Of a stretch of 64,000 nucleotides of DNA, positions 6,285 through 60,847 are shown piece by piece. Source of the DNA: a bacterium (GTDB taxonomy: Bacteria; ARS69); assembly GCA_025774805.1 (NCBI GenBank), contig JALGZR010000023.1, forward strand, positions 35,154 to 99,153, written 5' to 3'. The first letter of the stretch is position 1, and each line of letters starts with the position of its first letter. Made by a program: the position numbers and the translations under genes. The notes below the pieces were generated by a model. The model was given only the letters and a program-made list of their open reading frames with translations, was not told where the DNA came from and made no database searches.

Positions 6285-6441
6285 TCGGGACCACGCGCGG
6301 GGCAGTCACCGCGGGGGCGGGTGCGAGATCGAAGGCCCGGACTTCGATCTCCGAGGGCAGAATCTGTTGATTCCGTGCAAGAATCCGCCCGTCCTCGATT
6401 TCGGGGATGGCGGCCACGCGTTGGACTGAGGAGAGCACGTT

Positions 6442-8843: not shown

Positions 8844-8929
8844 GGCGAACCGTCGTGTCTCAAGGCGGCCCTCCATTCCTCCCGTCTTTTCCGGCGTCCC
8901 GGAAGCACTCCTTGAACGTCCGTCCCGGG

Positions 8930-8935
8930 TATAAT
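8930..8935 (+). promoter_or_regulatory. Possible -10 box ahead of ppk1
   Basis: A perfect TATAAT lies 54 bases upstream of the ppk1 ATG, in the 145-base gap after the ParA gene. The nearest TTGAAC (8912-8917) is only 12 bases away, shorter than the usual 16-18, so this may be an internal promoter needing an activator, or chance. Confidence 0.3.
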
Positions 8936-8988
8936 GGGACGGCGCGGGGACGAAGGGGCCGGCGTCCGTCGGGCCGGAGGATCGGATC

Positions 8989-11193: not shown

Positions 11194-11515
11194 ATCCGGT
11201 TGCGGTGGGAATTGTCACATTCGCCCTGCGAAGCGGCGGAGGCGGCCCACGAGCCGCGACCGATCGCCGCCGACACCCTGACCGATCGGTCGGTCGCGCT
11301 GCAAGTCGATGCCCCGACCGAAGGGCGGGTGCGGAAGTCCATCGAAGCCGAGCTGCGCGGGAGGGGTGGGGAGTGGCCCGTGCCGTCCCGGGGTGTTAAC
11401 TTCCCACAATGACCACGACCGGGGAAACCACGTCGGCGTCGGGAACGGCGCTCGCCGGGCACCGGTGCGGTTTCCCGTCTTCTTCGGATCCTCACCGTTT
11501 TCGTTGGAGGGTTGC
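11194..11515. other. Intergenic region upstream of the TonB-type operon
   Basis: About 320 bases with no convincing coding frame. A good ribosome-binding site (GGAGGG, about 11506-11511) sits just before the DUF3450 ATG. No clear promoter boxes or terminator hairpin were recognised, although the operon must be transcribed from here or from ppk1. Confidence 0.4.
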
Positions 11516-12313
11516 ATGACGAGGCACCCGCGGATCGCTCGGGGGCCAGGGCTGGGGGCGGCGATCGCCTTCGCGATGGGCGCGGCGATCTCCCCGGCAG
11601 GAGACCTCGATGCGGTCCTGAGCTCCGGCACGGAGAAGATCGAGCTGGCCCAGGCATCCCAGGCGCGGATCGACGAGATGGTCGAGGAGACCCGGGGACT
11701 GGAGAGCGAGTACACCCGGCTCATGAAAGAGATCGACGGGCTCGAGGTCTACAACGACTACATGGAGCGGCAGATCGCGGACCAGATCGCGGAGCTCGCG
11801 GAGCTCCGGCGTTCCATCGACGAGGTCAGCAACGTCGAGCGTCAGATCACGCCTCTGATGCTCCGCATGCTCGAGGGGCTGGAGCGCTTCGTCGAGCTGG
11901 ACGTCCCGTTCTTGAAGGAGGAGCGGCTCCGACGCGTCGCGAATCTGGAGGCCCTGATGGAGAAGGCGGACGTCTCCGCGGCCGAGAAGTTCCGCCGTCT
12001 GTTGGAGGCCTTCCAGATCGAGGTCGATTTCGGACGGACGATCGAGGCTTACAAGGACACGGTGCCCCTCGCGGGCGCGACCCTCGAGGTCAACGTCCTT
12101 CGTGTCGGGCGGGTGGGGTTGTACTTCCAGACGAACGACGCGAGCGCGACGGGCTCGTGGGATGGGGAGGCCGGAGAGTGGGTGCTTCTGACCGACGGCC
12201 GGTCCCGCAATCAGGTTCGTCAGGGACTGCGGATCGCACGGAAGCAGGTGGCGCCCGACCTCCTGCTGCTGCCGGTCCGCGCCCCGGAGCCGGCGGGGAA
12301 GGAATCCTCGTGA
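11516..12313 (+). CDS. DUF3450 family periplasmic coiled-coil protein
   Basis: A 265-residue exported protein. The start at ATG 11516 follows GGAGGG and gives a signal peptide (ARGPGLGAAIAFAMGAAI). The rest is mostly coiled coil (residues ~40-120) followed by the DUF3450 core with the motif EGLERFVELDVPF, then a small beta domain. DUF3450 proteins are encoded at the head of TonB2-type operons in gamma-proteobacteria, as here. The role is unknown, probably supporting the periplasmic side of the energiser complex. The stop overlaps the next start by 4 bp (GTGA). Confidence 0.85.
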   Translation: MTRHPRIARGPGLGAAIAFAMGAAISPAGDLDAVLSSGTEKIELAQASQARIDEMVEETRGLESEYTRLMKEIDGLEVYNDYMERQIADQIAELAELRRSIDEVSNVERQITPLMLRMLEGLERFVELDVPFLKEERLRRVANLEALMEKADVSAAEKFRRLLEAFQIEVDFGRTIEAYKDTVPLAGATLEVNVLRVGRVGLYFQTNDASATGSWDGEAGEWVLLTDGRSRNQVRQGLRIARKQVAPDLLLLPVRAPEPAGKESS

Positions 12314-13680
12314 GCGCCCGCACTCCGCGGCGGCTGGTCGCCGTCCTCGCCGCCGGCTGGCTGATCCCGGGCCCGACCGCGGGGCAAGAGGCCAAGACTC
12401 TCGACGAGCTGTTGCGGATGGTCGAGCAGGGCCGGGTCCGGGAAGAACAGGAGCACCGTGAGCGCGAATCGAGATTTCGCGAGGAGCGCGATCAGCAGGA
12501 ACGACTCCTGATCGAGGCGCGGGAGGCCCGAGCTGCCCAGGAGCGCCTCAGCGAGCGGCACGAGAACACGTACGACGAGAACGAGCTGAGGATCGTCGAT
12601 GTCACCGAGCAGCTGACCCGTCGCCTGGGCTCGCTGCGCGAGCTCTTCGGCGTCTTGCAGCAGGTGGCGGGGGACACCCAGGGCATCCTGGAGAGCTCGG
12701 TCACCACCGCGCAGTTCCCGGGACGAGGGGAGTTCCTGATCGAGCTGACCCGAAAGACGAGCTCGGCTTCCACGCTGCCCTCCATCGAGGAGATCGAGCG
12801 TCTCTGGTTCCTGGTGCAGCAGGAGATGACCGAGACCGGAAAGGTCGTTCGGTTCCGCGCGACCGTGATCACGGTGGACGGCCGTGAGGTGGAGCAGGAG
12901 GTCGCGCGCGTCGGAGGCTTCAACATCGTCTCCTCGGGGAAGTACCTGCAGTACACGCCGGAGACCGGGAATCTCTCCGAGCTCGGCCGGCAGCCCAAGC
13001 CCCGCTTCACCGGAACGACGCGTGAACTGCTGGAAGCGCGGGAAGGAACAGTGACCGTCGGGATCGATCCGACGCGGGGACAGATTCTCGCGGCGTACCT
13101 GGAGAGGCCCGGCCTCCGCGAGCGTGTCGACCAGGGTGGGGTCGTCGGGTACATCATCATCGCTCTCGGCGTGTTGGGTCTCCTGATCGCCCTGGAGCGA
13201 CTGGTCATGCTCGGGCGCGCGAGCGCGAAGGTCAGCGCGCAGCTCAGGACCGACGAGCCGCGGGAGGACAACCCGCTGGGTCGCGTCCTCCAGGTGGCAC
13301 GGGAACACGACAAGGCCGACGTGGAGACCCTGGAGCTGAAGCTCGGGGAGGCGGTTTTCCGGGAGACCCCGAAGCTGACCCGCGCGCTCCTGTTCCTCAA
13401 GATCATCAGCGTCGTCGCGCCGTTGCTCGGTCTCCTGGGCACCGTGACCGGGATGATCGTGACGTTTCAGGCGATCACGCTGTTCGGAACCGGCGATCCG
13501 AAGCTGATGGCGGGTGGGATCTCCCAGGCTCTCGTGACGACGGTTCTCGGTCTCACGGTGGCGATCCCGATGGTGCTGCTGCACACGCTGGTGAGCGGAC
13601 GCAGCCGGCGCATACTGCACGTACTGCAGGAGCAGAGCGCCGGGATCGTAGCCGAACGCTCGGAACAGGCGATGACCTGA
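12310..13680 (+). CDS. TtpC-like MotA/TolQ/ExbB proton channel protein with periplasmic extension
   Basis: A 456-residue protein starting at GTG 12310 in a GTGA overlap. It has a signal peptide (RLVAVLAAGWLIPGPTAG), a coiled-coil periplasmic domain (~25-270, very rich in E/R/Q), and then a MotA/TolQ/ExbB domain with three membrane segments, including VVAPLLGLLGTVTGMI and the long last segment LVTTVLGLTVAIPMVLLH. This is the arrangement of TtpC, the extra ExbB-like subunit of TonB2 systems. With ExbB, ExbD and TonB downstream it probably harvests proton-motive force to drive outer-membrane uptake. Confidence 0.88.
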   Translation: MSARTPRRLVAVLAAGWLIPGPTAGQEAKTLDELLRMVEQGRVREEQEHRERESRFREERDQQERLLIEAREARAAQERLSERHENTYDENELRIVDVTEQLTRRLGSLRELFGVLQQVAGDTQGILESSVTTAQFPGRGEFLIELTRKTSSASTLPSIEEIERLWFLVQQEMTETGKVVRFRATVITVDGREVEQEVARVGGFNIVSSGKYLQYTPETGNLSELGRQPKPRFTGTTRELLEAREGTVTVGIDPTRGQILAAYLERPGLRERVDQGGVVGYIIIALGVLGLLIALERLVMLGRASAKVSAQLRTDEPREDNPLGRVLQVAREHDKADVETLELKLGEAVFRETPKLTRALLFLKIISVVAPLLGLLGTVTGMIVTFQAITLFGTGDPKLMAGGISQALVTTVLGLTVAIPMVLLHTLVSGRSRRILHVLQEQSAGIVAERSEQAMT

Positions 13681-13687
13681 GGGCGCC

Positions 13688-14215
13688 ATGCAGATTCTCT
13701 TCGACGGTTACGTCGCCATCCGAGACTTCATGGAGCTGGGCGGCCCCGTGCTGAACGTCATTGCGGGAACGATCCTCTTGATGTGGATCCTCATCATCGA
13801 GAGGATCCTCTACTTCCGTACCGAGCACGGGACGAGAATGTCCGGGACGCTGGACGCCTGGGAGGCTCGGACGGAGCGTCGCTCCTGGCACGCTCATCAA
13901 ATCCGGGAAGCGCTTATCTCCCGCGTCAAAGTGGCGGCGACCGGACCGATTCCCCTCATCAGGTCTCTGGTCGCGCTCTGCCCCCTGTTGGGTCTCCTGG
14001 GCACGGTGACCGGAATGATCGAAGTCTTCGACGTGCTCGCCGTCTCGGGCGCGGCGAACGCCCGCTCCATGGCGGCCGGCGTCTCCCGCGCCACCGTTCC
14101 GACCATGGCCGGAATGGTCGGAGCGCTCTCCGGAGTCTTCGCCGCGACGCTGCTGGCGCGCGCGGTGAGTCGAGAGGTGGAGCGCCTGGACGAATCCCTC
14201 ACGATGGACCACTAG
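13688..14215 (+). CDS. exbB: ExbB-like proton channel subunit (MotA/TolQ/ExbB family)
   Basis: A short 175-residue ExbB2-type protein with three membrane segments: one near residues 20-40, then LVALCPLLGLLGTVTGMIEVF around 95-120, then TMAGMVGALSGVFAATLLAR around 140-160. The ATG lies 7 bases after the TtpC-like stop. ExbB forms the pentameric proton channel of the TonB energiser in the inner membrane. The small size matches the ExbB2 paralogue that works beside a TtpC protein. Confidence 0.92.
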   Translation: MQILFDGYVAIRDFMELGGPVLNVIAGTILLMWILIIERILYFRTEHGTRMSGTLDAWEARTERRSWHAHQIREALISRVKVAATGPIPLIRSLVALCPLLGLLGTVTGMIEVFDVLAVSGAANARSMAAGVSRATVPTMAGMVGALSGVFAATLLARAVSREVERLDESLTMDH

Positions 14216-14226
14216 AGGACGACGCC

Positions 14227-14643
14227 ATGAGAAACCGATTCACTGCCCAGCGCCAAGACGAAGACGAGCAGGAGATCAACATCACTCCGATGTTGGACGT
14301 CGTTTTCATCATGTTGATCTTCTTCGTCGTCACCGCCTCGTTCGTCAAGGAGGCGGGGATCGACGTGAACAAGCCGGAGGCCGTGACCGCGCAGGCGAAG
14401 GAGAAGGCGAACATCCTGATCGCGATCGATGCCGCCGGCGGAATCTGGATCGATCGGCGCAAGGTAGATCCCCGGGCCGTGCGCGCGAACATCGAGCGTC
14501 TCCACGCGGAGAACCCGCAGGGAACCATCGTGATCCAGGCGGACCGGGAGTCCAAGACAAAGGTCCTCGTGGACGTCATGGACTCGGCCCGCCTGGCGGG
14601 AGTCTACGACGTCGCCATCGCCGCGCAGCCGGAAGGCTCGTAG
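14227..14643 (+). CDS. exbD: ExbD-like biopolymer transport protein
   Basis: A 138-residue ExbD/TolR protein: a short cytoplasmic N-terminus, a single membrane helix with the essential aspartate in INITPMLDVVFIMLIFF (residues ~17-33), then a periplasmic ExbD domain. It starts at ATG 14227, 11 bases after exbB. A longer open frame upstream in the same phase overlaps exbB and has no support. It works with ExbB and TonB to couple proton flow to outer-membrane transport. Confidence 0.93.
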   Translation: MRNRFTAQRQDEDEQEINITPMLDVVFIMLIFFVVTASFVKEAGIDVNKPEAVTAQAKEKANILIAIDAAGGIWIDRRKVDPRAVRANIERLHAENPQGTIVIQADRESKTKVLVDVMDSARLAGVYDVAIAAQPEGS

Positions 14644-14647
14644 AGAG

Positions 14648-15253
14648 ATGATCGTGCGGCACGCGATCGCCGTCGTTCTTGGGACGCTCGTGACCCTCGG
14701 GGTCCTCTTCGTGATGCAGACGCTCATCGCGACCGCCCGGCAGGAGCTGGACGAGTCGGGAACGCGGCACTTCGTCGATTTCGTTCGAGTCGAGCGGGAG
14801 GAGACGGTGCAGCCCAAGGACCGCCGACCGGAGAAGCCGCCGAAGGCCGAGGCTCCGCCTCCCCAGACGATTCAGCCCCGGACGGATTCGGTGGAACCGA
14901 GGGGGAGCTCGATCCAAATCGCTCCCGTGGCGATGGAGACCGAGGTGTCGATCGGAGGCCTGGGGCTGGAGGCCGGGGACGGAGACTACCTGCCGATCGT
15001 GAAGATCGCTCCCGTGTATCCGTGGAAGGCGCAGGCGCAGGGCATCGAGGGTTATTGCGTCGTGGAGTACACCGTGTCGGCGAACGGCACGGTGAAGGAC
15101 GTCTTTGTCGTCGAAGCCGAGCCGGAAGGAGTGTTCGAGCGAACCTCCATCGATGCCGCGCTGAAGTTCAAGTACAAACCCCGCGTGGTGAACGGCGAGC
15201 CGATCGAGGTGAGGGGAGTGCGCAACCTGTTCCGATACACGCTCGAGGGATGA
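14648..15253 (+). CDS. tonB: TonB energy transducer
   Basis: A 201-residue TonB: N-terminal membrane anchor (residues ~5-27, AIAVVLGTLVTLGVLFVM), a short proline-rich linker (RPEKPPKAEAPPPQ) and a C-terminal TonB domain starting at VKIAPVYPWKAQAQGIEGY and ending FKYKPRVVNGEPIEVRGV. The domain contacts the TonB box of outer-membrane receptors. No TonB-dependent receptor is in the window, so the cargo is unknown. The 3' end overlaps the TPR gene (ATGA). Confidence 0.93.
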   Translation: MIVRHAIAVVLGTLVTLGVLFVMQTLIATARQELDESGTRHFVDFVRVEREETVQPKDRRPEKPPKAEAPPPQTIQPRTDSVEPRGSSIQIAPVAMETEVSIGGLGLEAGDGDYLPIVKIAPVYPWKAQAQGIEGYCVVEYTVSANGTVKDVFVVEAEPEGVFERTSIDAALKFKYKPRVVNGEPIEVRGVRNLFRYTLEG

Positions 15254-16536
15254 TGGAACGCCGCGGCCGGAGTCGAAAGCCGTTGCCGTGGGTGCGCGGA
15301 CTCCTCCTGACCGCGCTCGTGGTCGCGACGGTCGAGACCGGGGGCAGAGCCGCGATCGCCCAGTCCGCCGTCATGCGGGAACCGGTTTACAGGGAGCTGA
15401 GCAAAGCGGAGACGGCGGCCGAGGCGGGGGACTTCGAGGAGGCGCTGAAGGTGCTCGGGCGCCTCGAGAAGATGAAGGACCTCAGCAGCTACGAGCGGGC
15501 TCAGCTCTACGCGGCCTACGGCTTTCTCCACTTCTCACGGGAGAGCTACCGGGAGAGCATCGACTCCTACAATCGGGTGCTCGAGCAGGAGCCGCTCCCC
15601 GAGCAGATCGAGACGAGCACCCTCTACACGCTGGCCCAGCTCCAGTTCCAGGTCGAGGACTACCTCGCGGCGATCGAGCACCTCGACGAGTGGTTGGGCC
15701 GGACCGAGCGCCCGGGACCGGAGGCCTACATCCTCAAGGGCCAGGCCTACTATCAGCTCGAGCGATACCGGGACGCTCTCGAGCCCGTGAAGACCGCGAT
15801 CTCGATCGCCGAGGCCACCGACCGCAAGGTCGCCGAGAACTGGTATCTGCTGCTGCGCGTCCTGCACTACGAGCTCGAGGAGTGGGAAGAGGTCCTGGAC
15901 ATCCTCGAGATTCTCGTGACCCGGTATCCCAAGAGGGAATACTACGTGCAGCTCGGCGCGATGTACGGGCGGACCGGGTCCGCGGAGAGGCAGCTCGCCG
16001 CCTACGAGATGGCCTACCTGCAGGGTTTCCTGGAGCGGAGTGATGAGATCGTCCTTTACGCGCAGCTTCTTCTGCAGGCGGGAGTTCCCCACCGCGCTGC
16101 GAGAGTGCTGGAGGAGGGCATCGCCGACGGCCGGGTCGAGAAGAGCGTCGCGAATCTGCGATTGCTCTCCCAGGCGTGGATGCTCGCGGGAGAGGACGAT
16201 CAGGCGATCACGCCGCTGACGGAGGCCGCGGGCCTTTCCGACGACGGGGAGCTGGACGCACGACTGGCCCAGGCCTATGGGAATACCCGGGAATGGGAGA
16301 AGTCGGCGGAGGCGGCGCAGAGAGCACTGCGCAAAGGGGTGGATCGGGAATACGCGGTGCGGATCACCCTGGGCATGGCGCTCTTCGAGCTCGAGCGACG
16401 TGAGGAGGCCAGGTCTGCGTTCCGGGAGGCCGCAAACGCTCCCGAGGGGCGGGCCACCGCCACGCAGTGGATCCGGTACATCGAGAGCGAACAGGCGAGG
16501 CTCGCCGAGCTAGAGCGCTCGGTGGTCACACCGTAG
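15250..16536 (+). CDS. Exported TPR protein of the TonB2-type operon
   Basis: A 428-residue protein with a signal peptide (LLLTALVVATVETGGRAAIAQ) and about ten tetratricopeptide-like helical repeats from residue ~50 to the end. Two adjacent ATGs (15250, overlapping the tonB stop, and 15253) are both possible. A periplasmic TPR protein is the usual last member of DUF3450-TtpC-ExbB-ExbD-TonB operons and is thought to assist the complex. It ends the operon; the next gene is convergent. Confidence 0.85.
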   Translation: MMERRGRSRKPLPWVRGLLLTALVVATVETGGRAAIAQSAVMREPVYRELSKAETAAEAGDFEEALKVLGRLEKMKDLSSYERAQLYAAYGFLHFSRESYRESIDSYNRVLEQEPLPEQIETSTLYTLAQLQFQVEDYLAAIEHLDEWLGRTERPGPEAYILKGQAYYQLERYRDALEPVKTAISIAEATDRKVAENWYLLLRVLHYELEEWEEVLDILEILVTRYPKREYYVQLGAMYGRTGSAERQLAAYEMAYLQGFLERSDEIVLYAQLLLQAGVPHRAARVLEEGIADGRVEKSVANLRLLSQAWMLAGEDDQAITPLTEAAGLSDDGELDARLAQAYGNTREWEKSAEAAQRALRKGVDREYAVRITLGMALFELERREEARSAFREAANAPEGRATATQWIRYIESEQARLAELERSVVTP

Positions 16537-47315: not shown

Positions 47316-47483
47316 CGCGTCGCGGAGCGTCACTCCGTGCGTATTTCTCGTCACCAGGCGACGTCTGTTCCGTCATAGCCATTGGGGAGTCTACGCCCGG
47401 CGGTTGGGCCTCCTTCTCCACGTTCGTCTGCCCGGGCTCACCTCGCGGAGTGAACCGATCAGAGTGCACGGAAGGAGGTGTTC

Positions 47484-50707: not shown

Positions 50708-51324
50708 GCAGGGAAGTGAAAGATGACGCGTGCGGCGACTGGCCGCGCACGCGCTCGAGGCGAGGGCTGCGACCGTGGTCCTCGCCTTTCGACGCCCGGT
50801 GCCGCTGCACCCCCAAGCGTCGTGACTCGGCCGCGGTGTGGGACAAACCGGTGGGAATCCCCATGGGAGTTCCGTGGCGGGCGGCCCGCGAGACGGGGGG
50901 GAGTAATCGATCATCGAGTGGACGGGTGACAAACGGAATGAATTCCGAACCACCGCTCGGCCAGTGCCGAAGAGCAACGATCACAGAAGAAATGGGAGAA
51001 GGGCCCGGCCCCGTTCCGGTTGTCGATCCCGGATGTCCCTCCGGTATCTCCAGTTCGGAGGTCGGGACCGGGCGGCGGAGACGTCCAACCCTAGGCATGG
51101 ATCGAATCGTCTCGTTTGAGGTCGGGACATCGCGGGCACCACCCTGCGGGATTTCGTGACCGGGGACCGACCTCTTGCCCCACGGACGAAAGTTCGTGGC
51201 CGCTGATACGTCTGGGCCCCGGTTTCGTATCACGAGTACTCCCCGACCGTCTGTCGGGAGCATGACGATCCCCGACCTCCCGATGCGGGAGGCCTCCCCA
51301 ACATGAACCCTGGGAAAGACGCCC
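50708..51324. other. Long intergenic region before the CHRD gene
   Basis: About 620 bases. Open frames in this stretch are continuations of off-frame reading from the flanking gene and show no protein features. The sequence near 51200-51245 (GATACG and TTTCGTATCACGAG) could hold a promoter for the CHRD gene, but the boxes are weak. No RNA gene or repeat was recognised. Confidence 0.4.
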
Positions 51325-52407
51325 ATGACACACCCTCGACTCGTGGCCCTGACGGCTTCCGCCTCCCTCTTCCTCGCTCATCCGGCCTTCGGAATGGCGC
51401 ATCTCCGGGCCGTGATGGACGGATCGCAAGAGGTTCCGCCCTCCGGTTCGCCCGCGGTCGGCCTCGGACAGACCCTGATCGACACCAACACGAACACCCT
51501 CTTCTATCACATCTCCTATTCCGGACTCGTCGGAACCGAGACGGCGGCGCACATTCATGGATTCTCGCCCCCCGGAGTCAACTCGGGCGTCGTGCACACG
51601 CTTCCGGCGGGGAACCCCAAAGTCGGCGCATGGGTCTACACCAATGCTCAAGAGGCGAGCATTCTCGCCGGCCTCACGTACATCAACATTCACACCACCG
51701 CGAACCCGGGGGGCGAGATCCGCGGCCAGATCCTGGTGGATCCATCCACCGACCTGGTGGCTCTCATCGATCCGGGACAGGAGGTCCCCCCGAACCCTCC
51801 CGGCGGTCTGGGTATCGGGGTCTTCGACATCGACACGGCGGCGAACACGCTCGCCTACGACATCCGATTCGGAAATCTCACCGGAACCGAGACCGCCGCC
51901 CACATCCACGGCCCGGCACCTCCGGGGGTCAACGCAGGCGTTCTTCACGGTCTCGGAACAGGGAGTCCGAAGATCGGCGTGTGGAACTACCTGCCCGCCG
52001 AAGAGCCTCACATTCTCGGAGGATTGACCTATGTCAACATCCACACCACGTTTGACGCCGGCGGTGAGATTCGTGGACAGATCCTGGGGTCGAGCCCGAC
52101 CGTAGGAGTGAGCGAACTCCCCCCCAGGGCGGACGCTCTCGGGCTGCATGCGGTTCCGAATCCGGTGCGTGAGGGGTCGACCGTGCTGTTCTACCGTGTG
52201 CCGGTCGCCGGAAAGATCGAGGTGACGATTCACGACGTCCACGGGCGAGTCGTCCGGCGGCTCCTCGAGCGCTCGACCGAGACCTCCGGCACTCTGGCCT
52301 GGGACCTTCGGCAAGACGGGGGAACCCGGGTCGGTGCGGGAGTCTACTTCGCCAAGCTGCGGAGCGCGGAAGGGGAGAAGGTCACTCGCATCACCGTTCT
52401 CCACTAA
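51325..52407 (+). CDS. Secreted protein with two CHRD domains and FlgD-like tail
   Basis: A 360-residue exported protein. The signal peptide (ALTASASLFLAHPAFG) is followed by two tandem CHRD domains, residues ~26-145 and ~146-265, each with the hallmark AAHIHG and a closing NIHTT...GGEIRGQI. The tail (~275-360) is a FlgD-like domain ending KVTRITVLH. CHRD domains occur in chordin and in bacterial surface proteins; the function is unknown, and the conserved histidines suggest metal binding. ATG 51325 is used. Confidence 0.92.
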   Translation: MTHPRLVALTASASLFLAHPAFGMAHLRAVMDGSQEVPPSGSPAVGLGQTLIDTNTNTLFYHISYSGLVGTETAAHIHGFSPPGVNSGVVHTLPAGNPKVGAWVYTNAQEASILAGLTYINIHTTANPGGEIRGQILVDPSTDLVALIDPGQEVPPNPPGGLGIGVFDIDTAANTLAYDIRFGNLTGTETAAHIHGPAPPGVNAGVLHGLGTGSPKIGVWNYLPAEEPHILGGLTYVNIHTTFDAGGEIRGQILGSSPTVGVSELPPRADALGLHAVPNPVREGSTVLFYRVPVAGKIEVTIHDVHGRVVRRLLERSTETSGTLAWDLRQDGGTRVGAGVYFAKLRSAEGEKVTRITVLH

Positions 52408-52424
52408 CGGTGGGAGAAGTCCGA

Positions 52425-53177
52425 ATGGTCCGTTCCCCTTCGAACTCGAGCCGTGGCCGGGGGAGGCTCTTGCCCCCGGCCGCGCTCTTCGCGGGCCCAC
52501 TGCTCGCGGGTCTCGCCCTCGCCATCGTTCCCGGATGCACGGATCGGGGAGGGACGGCTCCGATCGGCCTGCAGGATGCGGGTTCGTCCGGGGACGATGA
52601 CGGGGGCGGGGACCGTGGTCCGATTCCCACGATCGAGGAGATCGTTCCCGCTCGCACGGTCGTCGGGGATACCGTCGTCGTCGTCGGTCGGGATTTCGGA
52701 GACGGACAGGGGTCCTCCCTCGTCTTCTCCACCTCTTCCCGGTCGATGAGCTCGGAGGCCGAGATCCTGAGCTGGTCCGCGGCCGAGATCGTCGCGGTGG
52801 TCCCCCCGGACGCGGCCCGTGGTGAGGTGCGCGTCCGGGTCGAGAGTCGAGAGTCCCTGGGGAGGACGTTCGACGTCGCTCCGCGGGTCGTTTCGTACGC
52901 CGCGGACGTGACTCCGCTCTTCCAGGTCTTCGGCTGCGTTTCCTGCCACGGAGGAAGCGGGGGCTTGAGCGTGCTCCCGTATGAAGCCCTGATGAGCGGC
53001 AACTCCGCCAACGGCCCGGTGGTCATCCCCCGGCGGAGCGGTGCGAGCCTCCTTCTCGGGCGGCTTCTGCCGAGCACACCTACCTCCCTTCGCATGCCCC
53101 AGGGCGGGCCCTACCTCGATGCCCGGCAGATTCTCATCCTCGCCGACTGGATCGATCAGAATGCACGGAACAACTGA
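52425..53177 (+). CDS. Lipoprotein with IPT/TIG domain and C-terminal haem c domain
   Basis: About 250 residues. Signal peptide with lipobox-like IVPGC, an acidic/glycine linker (SSGDDDGGGDRG), an IPT/TIG immunoglobulin-like domain (IEEIVPARTVVGDTVVVVG, ~75-160), and a small cytochrome domain with CVSCH and a late methionine in LRMPQGG as candidate axial ligand, similar to the planctomycete-type PSCyt1 domain. It is probably an exported electron-transfer or surface protein. The start at ATG 52425 follows GGGAG. It lies directly after the CHRD gene. Confidence 0.8.
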   Translation: MVRSPSNSSRGRGRLLPPAALFAGPLLAGLALAIVPGCTDRGGTAPIGLQDAGSSGDDDGGGDRGPIPTIEEIVPARTVVGDTVVVVGRDFGDGQGSSLVFSTSSRSMSSEAEILSWSAAEIVAVVPPDAARGEVRVRVESRESLGRTFDVAPRVVSYAADVTPLFQVFGCVSCHGGSGGLSVLPYEALMSGNSANGPVVIPRRSGASLLLGRLLPSTPTSLRMPQGGPYLDARQILILADWIDQNARNN

Positions 53178-53239
53178 CGCCCCGAATGGGGTAATCTCGA
53201 CCGGCGCCGAGACCATTGGTGTCACTTCCCGGAGAAGCG

Positions 53240-53866
53240 GTGAAATCTCCCCGAGGGCGATCGGCGACGCCGGCCGTCACCGCCCGGCGCGGGCAGCTGG
53301 AGAGGCTCCCGGACGCGGAACTGGCCGACCTGTGCGCCGAAGGAAACCAGCGAGCCTGGGAGGCCTTCGTACGCCGCTATCGGCGGTTGATCTACGCGAT
53401 CCCGAACCGGGCCGGCCTGGACGAGAACGAGGTGGAAGAGGTCTTTCACCAGACCTTCGCCCGGCTTGCGGAGAGAATCACGACGATTCGGGAACGGGGC
53501 CGGATCCGCGCCTGGATCGTCACGACAGCGCGAAGACTCACGATCGACTGCATCCGAGGCCACCGGGATTCGCGAGAGACCGAGGTCCCGGAGGAGGTGT
53601 GGGAAGGATTCGCGGATTCTGGTGAATCCGCCCTGGAGTCCCTGGAACGACTCGAAAAGCAGCACGCCGTCCGGCAAGCCATGCAGGGGATCGGGCCCCG
53701 TTGTCGTCGGTTGCTCTCCATGCTCTTCTACCATCGATCTCCCGAGCCGCCCTCGTACGAGATGATCAGCGAAGAGCTCCGGCTTCCGGTCGGCTCGATC
53801 GGGCCCACCCGAGCGCGCTGTCTCCGACGGCTGCGGGACGAATACGTCCGCATTCAGGCAGATTGA
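53240..53866 (+). CDS. ECF-type RNA polymerase sigma factor
   Basis: About 208 residues. Region 2 is RAWEAFVRRYRRLIYAIPNRAG, followed by VEEVFHQTFARLAE and RIRAWIVTTARRLTIDCIR. Region 4 contains SYEMISEELRLPVGSIGPTRARCLRRLRDEY, including the helix-turn-helix. This is the minimal sigma-70 (ECF) architecture that responds to an anti-sigma factor, here encoded downstream (54028). GTG 53240 is the start, with GGAG five bases ahead. It begins the sigma/anti-sigma/CHAT locus. Confidence 0.93.
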   Translation: MKSPRGRSATPAVTARRGQLERLPDAELADLCAEGNQRAWEAFVRRYRRLIYAIPNRAGLDENEVEEVFHQTFARLAERITTIRERGRIRAWIVTTARRLTIDCIRGHRDSRETEVPEEVWEGFADSGESALESLERLEKQHAVRQAMQGIGPRCRRLLSMLFYHRSPEPPSYEMISEELRLPVGSIGPTRARCLRRLRDEYVRIQAD

Positions 53867-54027
53867 GGCCGGAAGGGCCGATGCGATCCCCGAAGGGGGG
53901 CGGGGGCAAGGGCACAGGAGACGCGGGCGGGCCCCGAAACCGGCCCGGGGGGAGTCCCGTACAGTTTTCGCGAGGACGTATCTGACGGGAGACCATTCTG
54001 TCTGTCGGATCGGGAAAGGGGAGTGGA
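53867..54027. other. Spacer between sigma and anti-sigma genes
   Basis: A 161-base gap with no gene. A purine-rich stretch (GGAAAGGGGAGTGGA, around 54009-54024) ahead of ATG 54028 provides the ribosome-binding site. The region could hold an internal promoter recognised by the ECF factor, but I cannot identify the boxes. Confidence 0.35.
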
Positions 54028-54663
54028 ATGCATCCGACGGAACGCCAGCTGATCGACTACCTCCTCGAAACGGGCCTCCCCCGCGGGGAGCGAGGCATGA
54101 TCCAGCATCACCTGGACGGTCACTGCCCGGAGTGCGCCCGGGTCGTCGCACAGTTCCGGGAGCTCGTCGAGCTCATGCGTACGGATGAATGCGCGGAGCC
54201 GCCCGCGGAGTGGGTGGAGAGGGCCAAGGTCCTCGGACGGCCTTCACCGTGGGTGGCGAAGCTCGGGGAGTGGGGAGGGAAGCTCCAACAGGAAATCGGG
54301 CGCCTGGTCTTCGACTCGTTCGCGGCCTCCGATCTCGCCACCGCGGGCGTGCGCAACGTGGAGACCGAAAGGCGCATGAGGTTCGAATCGGGGCAGGTGG
54401 AACTGGACCTGCGCGTGGAACCCCACGGCCGGGGTGGGGTCGTCACCGGGCAGTTCGTGAAGCTCCGTCCCGATCTCGAGCCACTGGGGAACGCACGCTA
54501 CCTCGTCACCGCCGGAGACGCGGATGCGATCACCGGCACCGCCGACGATTTCGGCGAGTTCACGGAAAGCGTCCCCGATCTCTCGAGCCTGCGGATCCGG
54601 GTGATCGCGGAGGATCGAATCGCGACCTTCGAGGTTCCTGACCCGGTTCCCCCGGACGAATGA
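54028..54663 (+). CDS. Putative zinc-finger anti-sigma factor
   Basis: A 211-residue soluble protein. The N-terminal ~50 residues look like an anti-sigma domain with zinc ligands in QHHLDGHCPECARVV (histidines 27/28/32, cysteines 33 and 36). The H-to-C spacing is longer than the usual HxxxCxxC, so this is an atypical ZAS domain. No membrane helix is visible. The C-terminal half (~90-211) is beta-rich and not recognisable. It overlaps the CHAT gene by 4 bp (ATGA), so both are coupled. Confidence 0.75.
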   Translation: MHPTERQLIDYLLETGLPRGERGMIQHHLDGHCPECARVVAQFRELVELMRTDECAEPPAEWVERAKVLGRPSPWVAKLGEWGGKLQQEIGRLVFDSFAASDLATAGVRNVETERRMRFESGQVELDLRVEPHGRGGVVTGQFVKLRPDLEPLGNARYLVTAGDADAITGTADDFGEFTESVPDLSSLRIRVIAEDRIATFEVPDPVPPDE

Positions 54664-57545
54664 GCTCGATGAGCATTCACCTCGATGTGCTGAACGCGCC
54701 CGACCGGGAATCCGTGCACCGAATCCTGCGTGACTCGTCTTCGACCGAGCTTCGGGGCGCGGTCGAGCCGCTGGCCACCGAGGTCCTCCGGCTTCTGCGG
54801 GTGGATCCGCGGAAGGCATTCGAAGCGGCCGAGCGCGCCGAGATTCTCGCCGAACGGGTCCAGGAAACGGAGCCCAAGGCGCGCGTCCGATGGATCAAGG
54901 GGCACGCCCATTCCGCATTCTCGCAATTGCACGAGGCAGCGTCCTGCTACGAGGAGGCCGCCGAGCTCTACGAAGAGCTCGGAAGAAGAGCCGAGGTCGC
55001 CCGAATCGCGATCGGCCAAGTCAACGTGCTGACATACATGGGTGAGTACCGCAAGGCCCTGGCCGTAGGGGAGCGCGCACGAGACGTGTTGAGCCGAACC
55101 GGGCAGCGACCGGCCGCCGCCCGCATGGATCTCAATCTCGGAAACATCTATTACCGAATCGAGCAGCCGCGACGAGCGCTCTCCCGATACGATCGGGCCC
55201 TCCGGTTCGCGCGTCGATCCAAAGACCCGGGAATGACCCACATGATCCAGGTGAACCGGGGGACGGTTCTGTCCGCGCTGGGAGACCTGGATCGTGCCGA
55301 GAAGCTGCTGCGCGCGGCGGAGGACGAGGCGCGACTCGCCGGCGAGAGACGCATCCAGGCGATCGCCCGATTCAATCTCGGATACATCTTCTTTCAGCGG
55401 GGAGAGTACGGGGAGGCCTTCGATACTCTGGAAGCGGCTCGGGCCGCCTTCGAAGACCTCGGGGACGAGCACTATCTGACGAACACGCTCATCGACCTCA
55501 CCGAGCTGTTGATCGAGGTGAACGACTTCCGTCGTGCGCCCCGCATCGCCTCGGAAGCGAGAGCCCGCGCGCAGAAGCTGGGACTGCCCTTCGAAACCGG
55601 TCGTACTGCGCTCTTCCAGGGTGTGGCCGCCCTCGCCGGCGGGGCGATGAAGAGTGCCCAGAGCTTTCTGGAAGAGGCGCGGGAGACGTTTCGCGAGGGC
55701 GGGCACTTCTCTTCCCAGGCTCTCTGTGAGGTCTACCTCGCGCGGGTGGCCGCCCGTCAGGATGAGGGATCGGCGGCTTCCCGCATGCTCCGTCGGGCCG
55801 CCGCGGTCTTTCGCGAGGAGGGTATGCGTCTTCACGAGGCGGCGGCGCGGCTGTCGCAGGCGTCGGTGGACCTGACCCGGGGGCGGCGCAAGACCGCGCG
55901 GGCCAGCCTGGACTCGGCGGCCCGGTCTCTTCGGGGGGTGCCTTCTCCCTGGCTGCGGGCGCGACTCGCCCACCTGCGGGGACGGCTCGCCGAGGTCGAG
56001 GGGCGAGACGGCTGGGCGATTCGGCACTATCGGAGGGCCGTGGACACGATCGAATCGATTCGAGGCAGGATCGGGATCGACGAATTCCGCGTGAGCTTCG
56101 CGGAGGACAAAGCTCCCGTCTATGCGGACCTCGTCCACGCGATCCTCCGCCGAGGAGGGAAGGACAGCGTGGCGGAGGCCTTCTCCGCCGTCGAGCGGGC
56201 CCGATCTCGTGCCCTCGTGGATCTGTTGGCCGGCCGCTTGCGTCCCGCGGCGCGGGCCGCCGATCCGGAGACGCGGCGCCTCATCGAGCGGATGAACAAG
56301 CTGCGGGCGGAGATCAATCGGCTCTCCGGCTTCGGTCCGGCTTCGCCGGGCAAGCGAACCGGCTTCCGTCGCCGCGGAGTCGACACGTCCCGGCTGCGCG
56401 ATCGAGAGAGCAGGATGATCGACACGATTCGGCGCCTCGAGCGAAGGGACACCCGACTCGGGGCGCTGGCGGTCGGAGAGACGATCACGCTCGCCGAAGC
56501 ACAGGACGGACTGCCCTCCGAGGCCACGATGGTGGAGTACTTCCTGGGCACGACGACTTCGTGCGCTTTCGTCATTCGTCGTGACGAAGTCCGGGTGGTC
56601 GAGCTCCCGCTCACCCTTCGGGAGGCCGAGCGCAAAGTCGCCCACCTGAGATTCCAGATCGAGAAGCGGAGTTACGGTGAGGACTACACCCGGGCTCGCT
56701 CAGAGCTCTTGAATCGTGGAGTCAGACGACATCTGGAGTACCTGTCCGAGACCGTTTGGGAACCGCTCGCGATACGGGACCGGCGGGTGGTCATCGTTCC
56801 CCATGGGGCCCTCCATGCCGTTCCCTTCGCGGCCCTTCCGGTCGCCACCGGGGGGCAGGTGCTCGATCACCACGTCGTCTCCTATCTTCCGAGCGCGAGT
56901 TGCCGTCGGTACCTGCCGGGTTTGCGGGCCGGAGACCGGTCGGGATCCGACGGACGGAACGGGACGGCGGCGCACGGAGACCCGCGTCTCCTGGCCGTGG
57001 AGATGGACGACGAGGACATCCCCGAGGTTCGACGCGAGGTGCGGGAGGTTCGACGGGTCTTTCGCCGGGCTCGAGTTCTCACGGGAGACCGGGCGACGCG
57101 CGATGCATTCCGAAAGGCGGCCCGACACGCCGACGTGATCCACGTTGCGACGCACGGGCTCTTCCGGGGCGACGAGCCGGGATTTTCGTCGCTGAGGCTC
57201 GCGGATGGTTGGATGAGTCTCTACGACGTGTACGGGCTGACCCTGGACGCCCCTCTCGTCTGCCTGAGCGCTTGCCAGACGGGAAGAAGCCTCGTGGGTC
57301 CGGGCGACGAGCTCGTCGGGTTGAGCCGGGGTTTTCTCCATGCCGGCGCCTCCTCCCTGCTCGTGAGCCTGTGGCCCGTTCATGATCGATCGACAGCGGA
57401 TTTGATGATCGCCTTTTACAGGAAACTCAAGGCGAGAAGCCCCGCGAGCGAGTGCCTGCGGGACGCGATGCGGGAGGCGCGGGGAGGAGTCGAGCATCCC
57501 TATTCCTGGGGTGCGTTCATCCTGATCGGGGGTCCATCGGTCTGA
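54660..57545 (+). CDS. TPR-CHAT caspase-like protease
   Basis: A 961-residue protein. The first ~500 residues are TPR repeats (for example MDLNLGNIYYRIEQPRRALSRYDRAL in pieces). A helical linker follows, then a CHAT peptidase domain (~620-961) with the catalytic histidine at H832 in HVATHGLF and cysteine at C872 in LSACQTG, the caspase/separase-like dyad. CHAT proteases act on protein partners in defence and regulation; the TPR arm usually senses or binds. Encoded directly after an anti-sigma factor and before a subtilisin-like protease, it might cleave the anti-sigma factor. Confidence 0.93.
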   Translation: MSSMSIHLDVLNAPDRESVHRILRDSSSTELRGAVEPLATEVLRLLRVDPRKAFEAAERAEILAERVQETEPKARVRWIKGHAHSAFSQLHEAASCYEEAAELYEELGRRAEVARIAIGQVNVLTYMGEYRKALAVGERARDVLSRTGQRPAAARMDLNLGNIYYRIEQPRRALSRYDRALRFARRSKDPGMTHMIQVNRGTVLSALGDLDRAEKLLRAAEDEARLAGERRIQAIARFNLGYIFFQRGEYGEAFDTLEAARAAFEDLGDEHYLTNTLIDLTELLIEVNDFRRAPRIASEARARAQKLGLPFETGRTALFQGVAALAGGAMKSAQSFLEEARETFREGGHFSSQALCEVYLARVAARQDEGSAASRMLRRAAAVFREEGMRLHEAAARLSQASVDLTRGRRKTARASLDSAARSLRGVPSPWLRARLAHLRGRLAEVEGRDGWAIRHYRRAVDTIESIRGRIGIDEFRVSFAEDKAPVYADLVHAILRRGGKDSVAEAFSAVERARSRALVDLLAGRLRPAARAADPETRRLIERMNKLRAEINRLSGFGPASPGKRTGFRRRGVDTSRLRDRESRMIDTIRRLERRDTRLGALAVGETITLAEAQDGLPSEATMVEYFLGTTTSCAFVIRRDEVRVVELPLTLREAERKVAHLRFQIEKRSYGEDYTRARSELLNRGVRRHLEYLSETVWEPLAIRDRRVVIVPHGALHAVPFAALPVATGGQVLDHHVVSYLPSASCRRYLPGLRAGDRSGSDGRNGTAAHGDPRLLAVEMDDEDIPEVRREVREVRRVFRRARVLTGDRATRDAFRKAARHADVIHVATHGLFRGDEPGFSSLRLADGWMSLYDVYGLTLDAPLVCLSACQTGRSLVGPGDELVGLSRGFLHAGASSLLVSLWPVHDRSTADLMIAFYRKLKARSPASECLRDAMREARGGVEHPYSWGAFILIGGPSV

Positions 57546-57602
57546 ACGGTATCGAATCCCGCGACGGATTCCCCGGGATGGCGACCATGTAATCAACTAT
57601 GT

Positions 57603-57616
57603 GGTAAGCAGTTACC
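57603..57616. promoter_or_regulatory. Short palindrome upstream of the subtilase gene
   Basis: GGTAA-GCAG-TTACC, 5-base arms and a 4-base spacer, in an AT-rich patch (57585-57625) of the 198-base gap between the CHAT gene and the protease gene. It resembles the arms of the TetR operator at 27865-27881 but has a different spacing. A regulatory role is possible. Confidence 0.35.
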
Positions 57617-57743
57617 TTGCATTGAGGGTAGATCCGGACGGGTCGTTTTGGGTACGATCCCTTCGTATCATTCGAGGCCGTTCTTCGTCTGTCGAAGTTG
57701 AAGCGATCTTCAGCGACGCCGCATTGCCCGCAGGGAGGTCTCC

Positions 57744-59114
57744 ATGAGATCCGGGAACACCGGAATCGTCGGCTTGGCAATCCTAGCTCTCGCGCAGACT
57801 GGATGCGGTGAACACTCTCCGGTCGCTCCTTCCTCCGACTCCGCCGGCTCGGCCATCGATCCGCAGTCGATCATGGTGGCGGACGTCGCCGCTGGCGGCG
57901 CGCCGGGTGGAGTCGGATACCCCTCCGTCCCCGTCGTGCCCGACCAGGTCGTCGTCCGGCTTGCCGACGGCCTCGACCTTCCGACCTTCAATGACGTTTG
58001 GGGGACGAGCACCGTCCTCGAGTTGGAGGGGGGAGACTATGCTCTCGTGAGCTCGCCGGCGGGGCTCAATCCCTGGTACCTCGGGGAGAGCATGGAGGTT
58101 TCCGGAGATTGCCTCGTGGCGGAGCCGAACTTCGAGGTGGAGTCTCCCGAGTCGAATCAGGGGGTCGTGGCGTTCTACGAAGCCGGGAAGGTCTATGCGG
58201 ACGTTCTCGATCAGGATGCCATCCTCCGCATCGGAACGCCGCAGGCCCACCTGACCGCCACCGGTTCGGGTGTGGTCGTGGCGATCGTGGACACGGGTAT
58301 CGACGGCACCCATCCCGATCTCACCGGGCACGTATCTCCCGGATGGGATTTCGTCGACGGGGACCCGGATCCGATGGACATCGCGGATGGCATCGATCAA
58401 GACGGTGACGGGTTGGTGGACGAGGCTGCCGGTCACGGCACGCACGTGGCCGGAATCGTCCGGACGGTCGCCCCCGGAGCGAGTCTCCTTCCGGTCCGCG
58501 TGCTGAACACGGAGGGGGTCGGGACCTCGGTCGACGTCGCACGGGGCGTCCGATACGCAGTAGACCAAGGGGCCCACGTCATCAACCTCAGCCTCGGAAT
58601 GAACGCCGTCGCGGACGTGATCAAGGACGCGATCCAGTACGCGGAAGGCGTCGGCGTACTCGTCACGAGCTCCGCCGGCAACCGGGGCGTCGAGGACAAC
58701 CACCACTTCCCCGCGAGGATCAGCCAGGCCATGTCCGTCGCCGCCACGAACGCGGCCGACTTGAAGGCGAGCTTCTCCAGCTACGGTTCTCCGGTTTCGA
58801 TCTGCGCCCCCGGCGAGGGGATTCTATCCACCTACCTCGATCACGAGTTCGCCGTCTGGAGCGGCACGTCCTTCTCCACCCCGATGGTCTCCGGAGCGGC
58901 CGCTCTCTGGTTGGAGATCTCGCCGGGCAGTTCTCCTTCCAGCACCGTCGACGTCATTGAGGAGACCTCTCTCGCCCTCGACTTCTCCGGGTTCTGGTAT
59001 GACGGCAAGATGGGGGAGGGTCGGCTGGACGTCGCCGCACTGGTGGGTGAGTCGGGCTCGAGTTCGGATTCGGGGGACGAATACGAACCGGAGGGCCGCT
59101 TCCGCATTCGCTAG
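57744..59114 (+). CDS. Subtilisin-like serine protease lipoprotein (S8)
   Basis: A 456-residue lipoprotein. Signal peptide with the lipobox region AQTGC, then a propeptide-like stretch, then the S8 domain with the complete triad D183 (AIVDTGID), H231 (GHGTHVAG) and S376 (SGTSFSTP); the oxyanion Asn is in SSAGNRG. An aspartate-rich insert (DGDPDPMDIADGIDQDGDG) between D and H may bind calcium. It belongs to the sigma/anti-sigma/CHAT locus by order and strand, but is separated by a 198-base gap with its own ribosome-binding site GGGAGGT. It should be anchored in the membrane with its active domain outside the cytoplasm. Confidence 0.95.
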   Translation: MRSGNTGIVGLAILALAQTGCGEHSPVAPSSDSAGSAIDPQSIMVADVAAGGAPGGVGYPSVPVVPDQVVVRLADGLDLPTFNDVWGTSTVLELEGGDYALVSSPAGLNPWYLGESMEVSGDCLVAEPNFEVESPESNQGVVAFYEAGKVYADVLDQDAILRIGTPQAHLTATGSGVVVAIVDTGIDGTHPDLTGHVSPGWDFVDGDPDPMDIADGIDQDGDGLVDEAAGHGTHVAGIVRTVAPGASLLPVRVLNTEGVGTSVDVARGVRYAVDQGAHVINLSLGMNAVADVIKDAIQYAEGVGVLVTSSAGNRGVEDNHHFPARISQAMSVAATNAADLKASFSSYGSPVSICAPGEGILSTYLDHEFAVWSGTSFSTPMVSGAAALWLEISPGSSPSSTVDVIEETSLALDFSGFWYDGKMGEGRLDVAALVGESGSSSDSGDEYEPEGRFRIR

Positions 59115-59115
59115 C

Positions 59116-59165
59116 CCGCATTTCTCACCAGGCTCGTCACGGGGCTGCGGATAGTCGTGTCTGGC
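59116..59165 (+). repeat. 50-bp intergenic repeat, inverted partner at 63831
   Basis: This sequence directly after the subtilase stop matches the reverse complement of 63831-63880 at about 43 of 50 positions by eye; shared cores are CCGCATTTCTCA, GGCTCGTC, CTGCGGAT and GTCGTGTCTGGC. It does not code for anything obvious and is likely a member of a dispersed repeat family. Confidence 0.6.
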
Positions 59166-59220
59166 GAAGAGATGGGGGTATCTGGAGTGGGCGCCCGGCG
59201 TCTGTCTTCATGCGAAGCGC

Positions 59221-59364
59221 CTGGTTGGCAACTTCGACAACGACGGGGACCCGACCCGGGACGCCGCGGACAGCGACGGCCGCCGGGTTCGCCCGGGCGT
59301 CTACTTCGCGCGGCTGGAGGGCGTGAGCCCTGGAATGACGAGCAAGGTGGTCTACGTTCGATGA
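59221..59364 (+). pseudogene. Remnant of a FlgD-like C-terminal sorting domain
   Basis: Reading from about 59221 in frame gives LVGNFDNDGDPTRDAADSDG, followed by RRVRPGVYFARLEG and ending KVVYVR with a TGA at 59362-59364. This is the last part of the same kind of domain that ends the intact secreted proteins here (DGRDESGSPAASGVYFYRL and MVLIR in the 49481 gene). Upstream, no coding frame continues, so it is a fragment of a lost gene. Confidence 0.65.
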
Positions 59365-59386
59365 ACCCGGGAGAGGAGGATCGATC

Positions 59387-60847
59387 ATGAGCCGTAGTCA
59401 CCGGGCCGCGGGCCTCGGGGTCTTGCTGGGAATCGTCTGCGCGATCGGATTCTCCGCGCCGATCGTGGGCGCCCAGTCCATCTGTGGGGAGTGGATGCCG
59501 GTCGAGGTACCGGCGGGTTTCCAGACCCTCACCGACGTCACGGCCAGCTCGCCCTCGGCTGCGTGGGCCCTGGCCGGGTACGCGAACGCCGTCCACTGGG
59601 ACGGCTCCGCGTGGAGCGAGTTTGCCCTGCCCGACCTCAGCGATCTGGGAACCGCGTTCGACCTGCGCGCGACGGCCTCGTTGGCTCCGTCGCACTTCTT
59701 CGTGGCCGGAATCCTCCAGACCAGCGTCTGGACCACCGAGCAGCTCCTGCTGATTTGGGACGGCTCCGACTGGGACCGGATCGAGTCGGTGGAGCTGGAG
59801 CCGAACATCGCGGGGGCGCCCCGCTACGGCTCTCCCTCGGCGATCGCCGCCGCCACCCCGGACGACCTCTGGATCATCGGTCTGGCCAGCGGATCGGGGG
59901 ACGGTGTCAGCGGAGCGCCCATCCTTACGGTCCACTGGGACGGGTCGCAGTTGACCGAAGTCCACACGCCGGGTGTCGGGAACCGCCAGAACAACATGGA
60001 GGACGCGGTGGCCATTGCCTCGGACGACATGTGGGCCGTGGGCAGTTACAACAACACGGGGGTGGGGGACTACGCGTTCCACGGCATGACATACCACTAC
60101 GACGGCAGCAGCTGGAACCACGTCCCGAGTCCGACGCAGAGCATCGACTCTTCCCATCTAAACGCCGTGGCGGCGATTGCCACCGACGACGTCTGGGCCG
60201 CCGGCGACTCTCCGGCCGGGCCGCTCTTCATGCACTGGGACGGGGGCTCGTGGACGATCGTTCCGGGCCCACCGGGAGTCACGGGCACGGTCCACGGGCT
60301 GGCGGCGATCGCCACCGACGACGTCTGGGCCGTGGACTTCCCCTGGCAGGTTCCGGTGATTGGCAAGTACTACCACTGGGACGGAACGGCCTGGAGCGTG
60401 GTGTTGCCGGAGGTCGCGGGGGCCACGCAAATCGCCCGGCACGGGGGGCTGGCCGCCGTCGGCGAGTGCGACGTCTGGGCCGTGGGTAACATCAACTTCG
60501 GATCGGGAGCCGAGGCCTTCATCGAGCGGCTCCAGGCCGGGGCCGGGATGACGGCCGCGCCGTCCGTCACGGCGGGCGTCTCCTCTCTCGAGGTGCTCCC
60601 GAACCCGATGCGTCACTCCGCCCGGATCCGCTTCGCGATGCCCGGCGACGTTCCGAGTCACGCTCACATCTACAACGTTCGGGGGCGCCGGGTCCGCGCG
60701 CTCTTCGAGGAGCCCGTCTCGGGGAGCACGGTCACCTGGGACGGCCGGGACGACGCGGGCGAGCGCGTGCCCGCGGGCGTGTATTTGCTGAGAGTCGAGT
60801 CGAACGACGGCGAAGCGCTCACGAAGAAGCTGACGGTCGTGCGATGA
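59387..60847 (+). CDS. Secreted beta-propeller protein with FlgD-like tail
   Basis: A 486-residue protein with a signal peptide (LGVLLGIVCAIGFSAPIVGAQ). Residues ~35-390 contain repeated blades with the pattern TDDVWAVG...HWDGSSW (for example MHWDGGSWTIVPGPPG), a propeller type common in secreted proteins of soil bacteria. The last ~85 residues are a FlgD-like domain (RVPAGVYLLRVES...KLTVVR). ATG 59387 is preceded by GAGGAGG. The domain remnant at 59221-59364 ends 22 bases upstream. Confidence 0.85.
   Translation: MSRSHRAAGLGVLLGIVCAIGFSAPIVGAQSICGEWMPVEVPAGFQTLTDVTASSPSAAWALAGYANAVHWDGSAWSEFALPDLSDLGTAFDLRATASLAPSHFFVAGILQTSVWTTEQLLLIWDGSDWDRIESVELEPNIAGAPRYGSPSAIAAATPDDLWIIGLASGSGDGVSGAPILTVHWDGSQLTEVHTPGVGNRQNNMEDAVAIASDDMWAVGSYNNTGVGDYAFHGMTYHYDGSSWNHVPSPTQSIDSSHLNAVAAIATDDVWAAGDSPAGPLFMHWDGGSWTIVPGPPGVTGTVHGLAAIATDDVWAVDFPWQVPVIGKYYHWDGTAWSVVLPEVAGATQIARHGGLAAVGECDVWAVGNINFGSGAEAFIERLQAGAGMTAAPSVTAGVSSLEVLPNPMRHSARIRFAMPGDVPSHAHIYNVRGRRVRALFEEPVSGSTVTWDGRDDAGERVPAGVYLLRVESNDGEALTKKLTVVR

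Follow-up and report, generated by a model that had tools for sequence, protein, structure and literature searches.

A conserved sigma factor, anti-sigma factor, TPR-CHAT protease and subtilase cassette as a candidate CRISPR-free protease-gated sigma switch

Can a TPR-CHAT protease release a sigma factor outside of a CRISPR system? This question is raised by a locus on contig JALGZR010000023.1 of the bacterial assembly GCA_025774805.1 (GTDB lineage ARS69), where a stretch of 64,000 nucleotides (the window) was analysed. It is part of a 5.1-Mb draft genome (G000) with 96% completeness and 5% contamination. Four open reading frames follow each other on the plus strand between positions 53240 and 59114. 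They encode an extracytoplasmic function (ECF) sigma factor (SIG), a protein of 211 amino acids (ANTI), a TPR-CHAT protein of 961 amino acids and an S8 subtilase of 456 amino acids. An initial annotation, made from the letters of the window alone, had called ANTI an anti-sigma factor and suggested that the CHAT protease releases the sigma factor as in the type III-E CRISPR (Craspase) system; the positions and the strand that it gave for the four genes are confirmed here. The follow-up analysis is best explained by an ECF sigma switch that is gated by a protease and reinforces itself through positive feedback: TPR-CHAT would cut ANTI and the freed sigma factor would drive an exported regulon. 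We assign this reading a probability of about 60%.

For the identification of homologues, protein searches with CHAT and ANTI were followed by searches with anti-sigma alignments, and the neighbourhoods were scanned with own-built profiles. Start codons of the homologues were chosen by script and contig borders cut off several loci. A search for close-homologue contigs with the CHAT protein gave two loci only, one of them from a 'Gemmatimonadetes bacterium' metagenome-assembled genome, so that conservation was taken from the wider genome search. The full order SIG-ANTI-CHAT-S8 was found in 24 loci of 22 genomes belonging to 11 families, and the first three genes in this order in 38 loci from 14 families. 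The cassette is spread over at least five phyla, and a related set was found in one Actinomycetota locus. Homologues are present in 4 of 5 genomes of the window's own phylum, in 19 of 47 genomes of the phylum of G201, in 26 of 291 genomes of the phylum of G297 (zinc-only matches among them) and in two small phyla (G105, G140). With 22 genomes sharing it, the four-gene arrangement is not due to chance. The initial proposal, which was to fall if the gene order were confined to this genome, therefore survives that test.

The distance between ANTI and CHAT is at most 25 bp in 37 of 45 cases and an exact 4-bp overlap in 13; in the window the overlap consists of ATGA at 54660-54663, as noted before. 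In G201 the four-gene unit is present twice, in tandem. Variants were found with the order SIG-CHAT-ANTI-S8 (L174, L179) and with a divergent SIG (L168, L171). Mirror-tree correlations were 0.85 for SIG and CHAT and 0.83 for the beta-domain and CHAT; as there is no baseline from a species tree, we do not take these values as proof. A tblastn search of plasmids with ANTI gave zero matches and the CHAT matches among plasmids were generic. The sigma factor search of plasmids led to a Nonomuraea locus (L182) with the order S8-SIG-beta-domain-CHAT and to two Streptomyces plasmid relatives of the sigma factor without the cassette. On a plasmid of Miltoncostaea oceani (L181), the gene immediately after a related sigma factor gene encodes an S8 protein of cytoplasmic appearance, and neither CHAT nor ANTI is present. 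At L148 (G395:C159) one CHAT gene is flanked by two sigma/anti-sigma pairs which face each other.

ANTI (54028-54663, plus strand) has no match in Pfam. Its profile matches the solved zinc-binding anti-sigma (ZAS) factors RsiW (4e-5) and RslA (9e-5) over residues ~12-74; a further match, at residues ~111-200, is to an Ig-like part of NOMO2. The AlphaFold2 (AF2) model (pLDDT 84.6) consists of helices at residues 5-85 and strands at 87-202, and the N-terminal helical domain carries the ZAS zinc motif H2, H28, C33 and C36. ANTI is thus predicted to be a ZAS anti-sigma domain (residues ~1-70) joined to a beta-sandwich (~87-203), and it probably holds the sigma factor through the ZAS-type domain, as is typical of this family. 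Among homologues, the zinc ligands are conserved in 42/49 (H28), 41/46 (C33) and 41/47 (C36). Foldseek found nothing for ANTI at E ≤ 0.001. With VIA the best match of the beta-domain was the copper protein CrdA (Z 9.4, rmsd 2.2, 91 aligned residues), and the matches are generic beta-sandwiches.

The association with the protease follows the second domain. Among matches gathered by ANTI similarity alone and with enough downstream sequence, a CHAT gene is adjacent to 47 of 48 beta-domain proteins vs 1 of 14 zinc-only matches (Fisher 2e-11, a descriptive value since related loci are not independent). As CHAT neighbours had served to define the ANTI query family in the first place, what the test shows is that proteins of the CHAT-linked type are recognised by their beta-domain rather than by their zinc domain. 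The CHAT gene is tracked by the beta-sandwich and not by the zinc site. R109 is invariant in 50 of 50 homologues and D96 is present in 47 of 50. R109 (codon 54352-54354) is located in a low-confidence loop of residues 97-114 (54316-54369), which comes after the LVFDS strand and is a candidate cleavage site.

SIG (53240-53866, plus strand) starts with GTG, with an alternative TTG at 53216. It matches Pfam Sigma70_r2 (4e-9) and, over residues 47-209, the NCBIfam profile sigma70-ECF TIGR02937 (4.4e-21). With sigma2 and sigma4 regions only, it is an ECF sigma factor. The region 4.2 signature GSIGPTRxRCL was found in 36 of 48 cassette sigma factors vs 1 of 14 located beside generic anti-sigma factors, and this single case is itself a truncated cassette.

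The TPR-CHAT protease is encoded at 54660-57545 (plus strand) and matches CHAT (PF12770) with 1e-56. The dyad H832/C872 of the initial annotation was confirmed, and it is intact in all 39 copies that are readable through this region, as expected for a CHAT peptidase. The AF2 model (pLDDT 83.8) shows a long arm of helical repeats and, at the C-terminus, a caspase-like region. Among the best Foldseek matches were human separase (7e-19) and Csx29 (8eey_B, 7.5e-18), and VIA gave Csx29 with Z 29.9 (rmsd 9.1, 603 aligned) and separase with Z 29.0 (rmsd 3.1, 315 aligned). Both methods support the earlier idea of a Csx29-like CHAT protein, to which they add a likeness to separase. A simple hydropathy test revealed no signal peptide in any of 47 copies. 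For a separase-like S1 aspartate, E793 (40/40) and D909 (36/37) were considered, but they could not be matched to individual residues of separase, and we make no claim of Arg specificity. The membrane anti-sigma factor DdvA was another Foldseek match; it is absent among the VIA matches listed, and no link is claimed. Two further loci were observed in the same genome. L074 (G000:C253:55000-73988, 5309-15932) contains two tandem units, each with a sigma factor, an anti-sigma factor that has a membrane segment, and a TPR-CHAT protein with an export-type N-terminus; they represent another type of sigma/CHAT pairing, one that faces the envelope. At L084 (G000:C51, 979-4670) a small Cys-containing open reading frame lies directly 5' of another exported TPR-CHAT and may form a third unit.

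The S8 subtilase (57744-59114, plus strand) matches PF00082 with 2.5e-44. Its triad D183/H231/S376 is as annotated before and is intact in every copy present. It was described as a lipoprotein, which is supported in part: an N-terminal export signal is indeed present and the N-terminus is hydrophobic in 34 of 38 copies. The lipobox, QTGC, is non-canonical, although a good lipobox occurs in some relatives.

A putative promoter connects these genes. The motif GTATC-N17-GTCTGTC is common to the relatives of the window upstream of ANTI. In the 5.1-Mb genome the pattern GTATCN{16,18}GTCTGTC occurs four times, on one strand and all within 8 kb at the locus, and the reversed-pattern control gave one match. 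All four sites are on the plus strand. The first (51227-51255) lies 5' of a gene at 51325-52407, the product of which is secreted, contains two CHRD domains and ends in a weak sorting tail. This putative sigma target is followed by a gene at 52410-53177 for an exported TIG protein with a weak PSCyt1 (cytochrome-like) match, and SIG is the third gene of this run. The second site, GTATC-N17-GTCTGTC (53978-54006), is found ~22 bp upstream of ANTI and the third (57665-57693) ~50 bp upstream of S8. The fourth (59178-59206) precedes a further putative target at 59387-60847, a secreted protein with a FlgD-like sorting tail and a weak propeller match. Its orthologue in G004 (G004:C611) also has the box, and in G001 two boxes were found, each 5' of genes for exported proteins. 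Scans for sigma-70 promoters and terminators gave matches at chance level.

A two-block pattern was found upstream of 24 of 50 ANTI genes (shuffle mean 0.4, maximum 5), 0 of 49 CHAT genes and 0 of 48 SIG genes; these counts are descriptive, since the pattern was picked after viewing the same sequences. Lineage forms are GTATCA-N-CCACCT (13 matches in the loci vs 0 in reversed sequence), GTATTT-N-GCAT (8 vs 2) and GTATCA-N-GAC (11 vs 0). Such boxes also occur 5' of genes for glycosyltransferases and secreted proteins, and 11 and 7 loci have glycosyltransferase genes at the flanks of the cassette. In one family a box copy inside the sigma factor gene is conserved at the DNA level; the preceding codon encodes Gly, Ser or Arg and always ends with GT. 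In L082 and L143-L146 a second sigma-box upstream of the sigma factor gene faces away toward a divergent gene, which encodes a glycosyltransferase in L082. A weaker box-like site, GTATT...GTCTG, lies at 47341 in the window, ~0.1 kb 5' of a secreted-protein gene at 47478, a possible further target. Just past the S8 stop, the region 59115-59370 contains sigma-box 4 and, in another frame, what is left of a FlgD-type sorting tail (RVRPGVYFARLEGV...), perhaps from a decayed gene.

These observations fit the following course of events. ANTI would keep the sigma factor inactive by its N-terminal ZAS-type domain. The cytoplasmic, separase/Csx29-like TPR-CHAT, co-translated with ANTI, would recognise the beta-sandwich. 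Its TPR superhelix may sense a partner, the role in trigger sensing that the initial annotation had given to the TPR arm, whereupon CHAT would cut the exposed loop 97-114 at or near R109. After loss of the ANTI remnant, the free sigma factor would read the GTATC-N16..18-GTCTGTC boxes and drive ANTI-CHAT, the exported S8 and secreted proteins; glycosyltransferase genes would join these targets in other lineages. The box 5' of the CHRD gene may serve SIG as well. The output would be a small regulon of exported and surface components, with S8 downstream.

Several findings weigh against this reading. Csx29 cuts Csx30 at residues 427-429 with no single essential residue; therefore CHAT proteases need not require Arg, and R109 could be a structural or docking residue. 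Some ANTI proteins have no recognisable ZAS domain (L178, Nonomuraea L182), and sigma binding is unproven there. In L083 a beta-domain ANTI adjoins S8 with no CHAT nearby, and the Arg loop is retained.

L083 also suits the strongest alternative, a purely transcriptional coupling, in which CHAT and S8 would be co-regulated effectors (e.g., a cell-damage or processing pair) and ANTI would be freed by another signal, such as a partner or a ligand of the beta-domain. It is in line with the position of ANTI, CHAT and S8 behind sigma-boxes, which makes all three outputs of the sigma factor. However, translation of CHAT is coupled to that of ANTI, the CHAT gene follows the beta-domain specifically, and a mere effector would need no invariant Arg loop in ANTI. 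We regard this alternative as possible, at roughly one third of the weight given to the protease-gated switch. Much less probable is a redox or metal switch at the zinc site like RsrA or ChrR, with the proteases secondary: the H2, H28, C33, C36 layout and the RsiW/RslA matches agree with it, but ~9 of 50 homologues have lost H28, C33 and C36 and keep sigma factor, CHAT and S8.

Degradation of the sigma factor itself was proposed for the ECF54 group (PMC8999054); applied here, CHAT and/or S8 would keep the sigma factor off and ANTI would be an adaptor. That proposal presumed no anti-sigma factor, whereas a ZAS-type protein is present here, and the export-type N-terminus of S8 puts it beyond the reach of the sigma factor, so that we consider this unlikely and slightly more so than the redox switch. 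Last, S8 as an envelope-side protease which starts the cascade, the second of the two roles offered in the initial annotation, is exported and conserved beside the cassette but highly improbable, as ANTI has no clear membrane segment in any homologue (maximum 19-aa hydropathy 1.71) and S8 has its own sigma-box. With this box and the export signal, S8 is most likely an output.

Which known systems are comparable? ECF54, a precedent absent from the initial annotation, has neighbourhoods with carboxypeptidase, subtilase and CHAT domains and no anti-sigma factor reported (Huang 2015; Casas-Pastor 2021; reviewed in PMC8999054). CHAT and S8 neighbours are conserved here as well, and the Nonomuraea locus with its S8-SIG-beta-domain-CHAT order links that report to this cassette. 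The Arg loop of ANTI recurs in its beta-domain protein (AGVRGG), which lacks a clear ZAS domain. In contrast to the ECF54 description, a ZAS-bearing beta-domain protein and a sigma-box regulon are present here, and the ECF54 'carboxypeptidase' may correspond to the beta-domain of ANTI. In Craspase, Csx30 holds the sigma factor with its N-domain, while the site of cleavage by Csx29 is a small flexible loop of the Csx30 C-domain (PMC10028731). The locus shares with it a TPR and separase-like CHAT protease, a two-domain sigma inhibitor with a flexible C-domain loop, and sigma sites in its own locus. In contrast, no Cas7-11/gRAMP is present: the genome has zero RAMP (PF03787) matches in its 96% complete assembly, as the initial annotation had said for gRAMP, and the locus is not a Craspase. 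The inhibitor is of ZAS type with no detectable similarity to Csx30, which is not among the sequence or fold matches of ANTI, an absence that is weak evidence. CHAT scores 35.3 bits against the Csx29 family NF041237 (cut-off 300); the likeness to Craspase lies in logic and fold and not in family membership. The locus resembles a Craspase protease-sigma circuit without CRISPR.

In the CalpL/CalpT/CalpS system a cytoplasmic protease frees a sigma factor from its inhibitor. It differs by a Lon-type protease switched by cyclic oligoadenylate in type III CRISPR, and its protein families are unrelated (PMC11417357). RsiW, matched by the N-domain of ANTI, and RseA are membrane-bound and cut by site-1 and site-2 proteases. 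Separase has a TPR-like arm and a caspase-like domain and is among the best structural matches of CHAT; however, it is eukaryotic and cleaves cohesin, and a P1 Arg, established there (PMC10317155), is only suggested here. PADLOC matches were weak or generic only (BovA 5e-6, generic subtilase), so a role in anti-phage defence is not claimed. Besides ECF54 and Craspase, the literature searched contains no description of such a gene set.

New here are the identification of the anti-sigma factor, the spread of ZAS-bearing cassettes outside Actinomycetota, the loop proposed as the cut site, and a sigma-box that defines a local regulon. The cassette offers a CRISPR-independent setting for asking what TPR-CHAT proteases do in ordinary bacteria. 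With R109 as the candidate cut site in a likely substrate, and with a cognate promoter and a limited number of targets named, the circuit is testable in E. coli with one reporter. The ECF54-type neighbourhood would be recast: the supposed carboxypeptidase is probably an anti-sigma factor and the subtilase an output. More tentatively, at slightly worse than even odds, the cassette may represent a widespread CRISPR-free class of separase-like protease-anti-sigma switches, cut after the invariant Arg, of whose older logic Csx29, Csx30 and their sigma factor would be a CRISPR-captured example.
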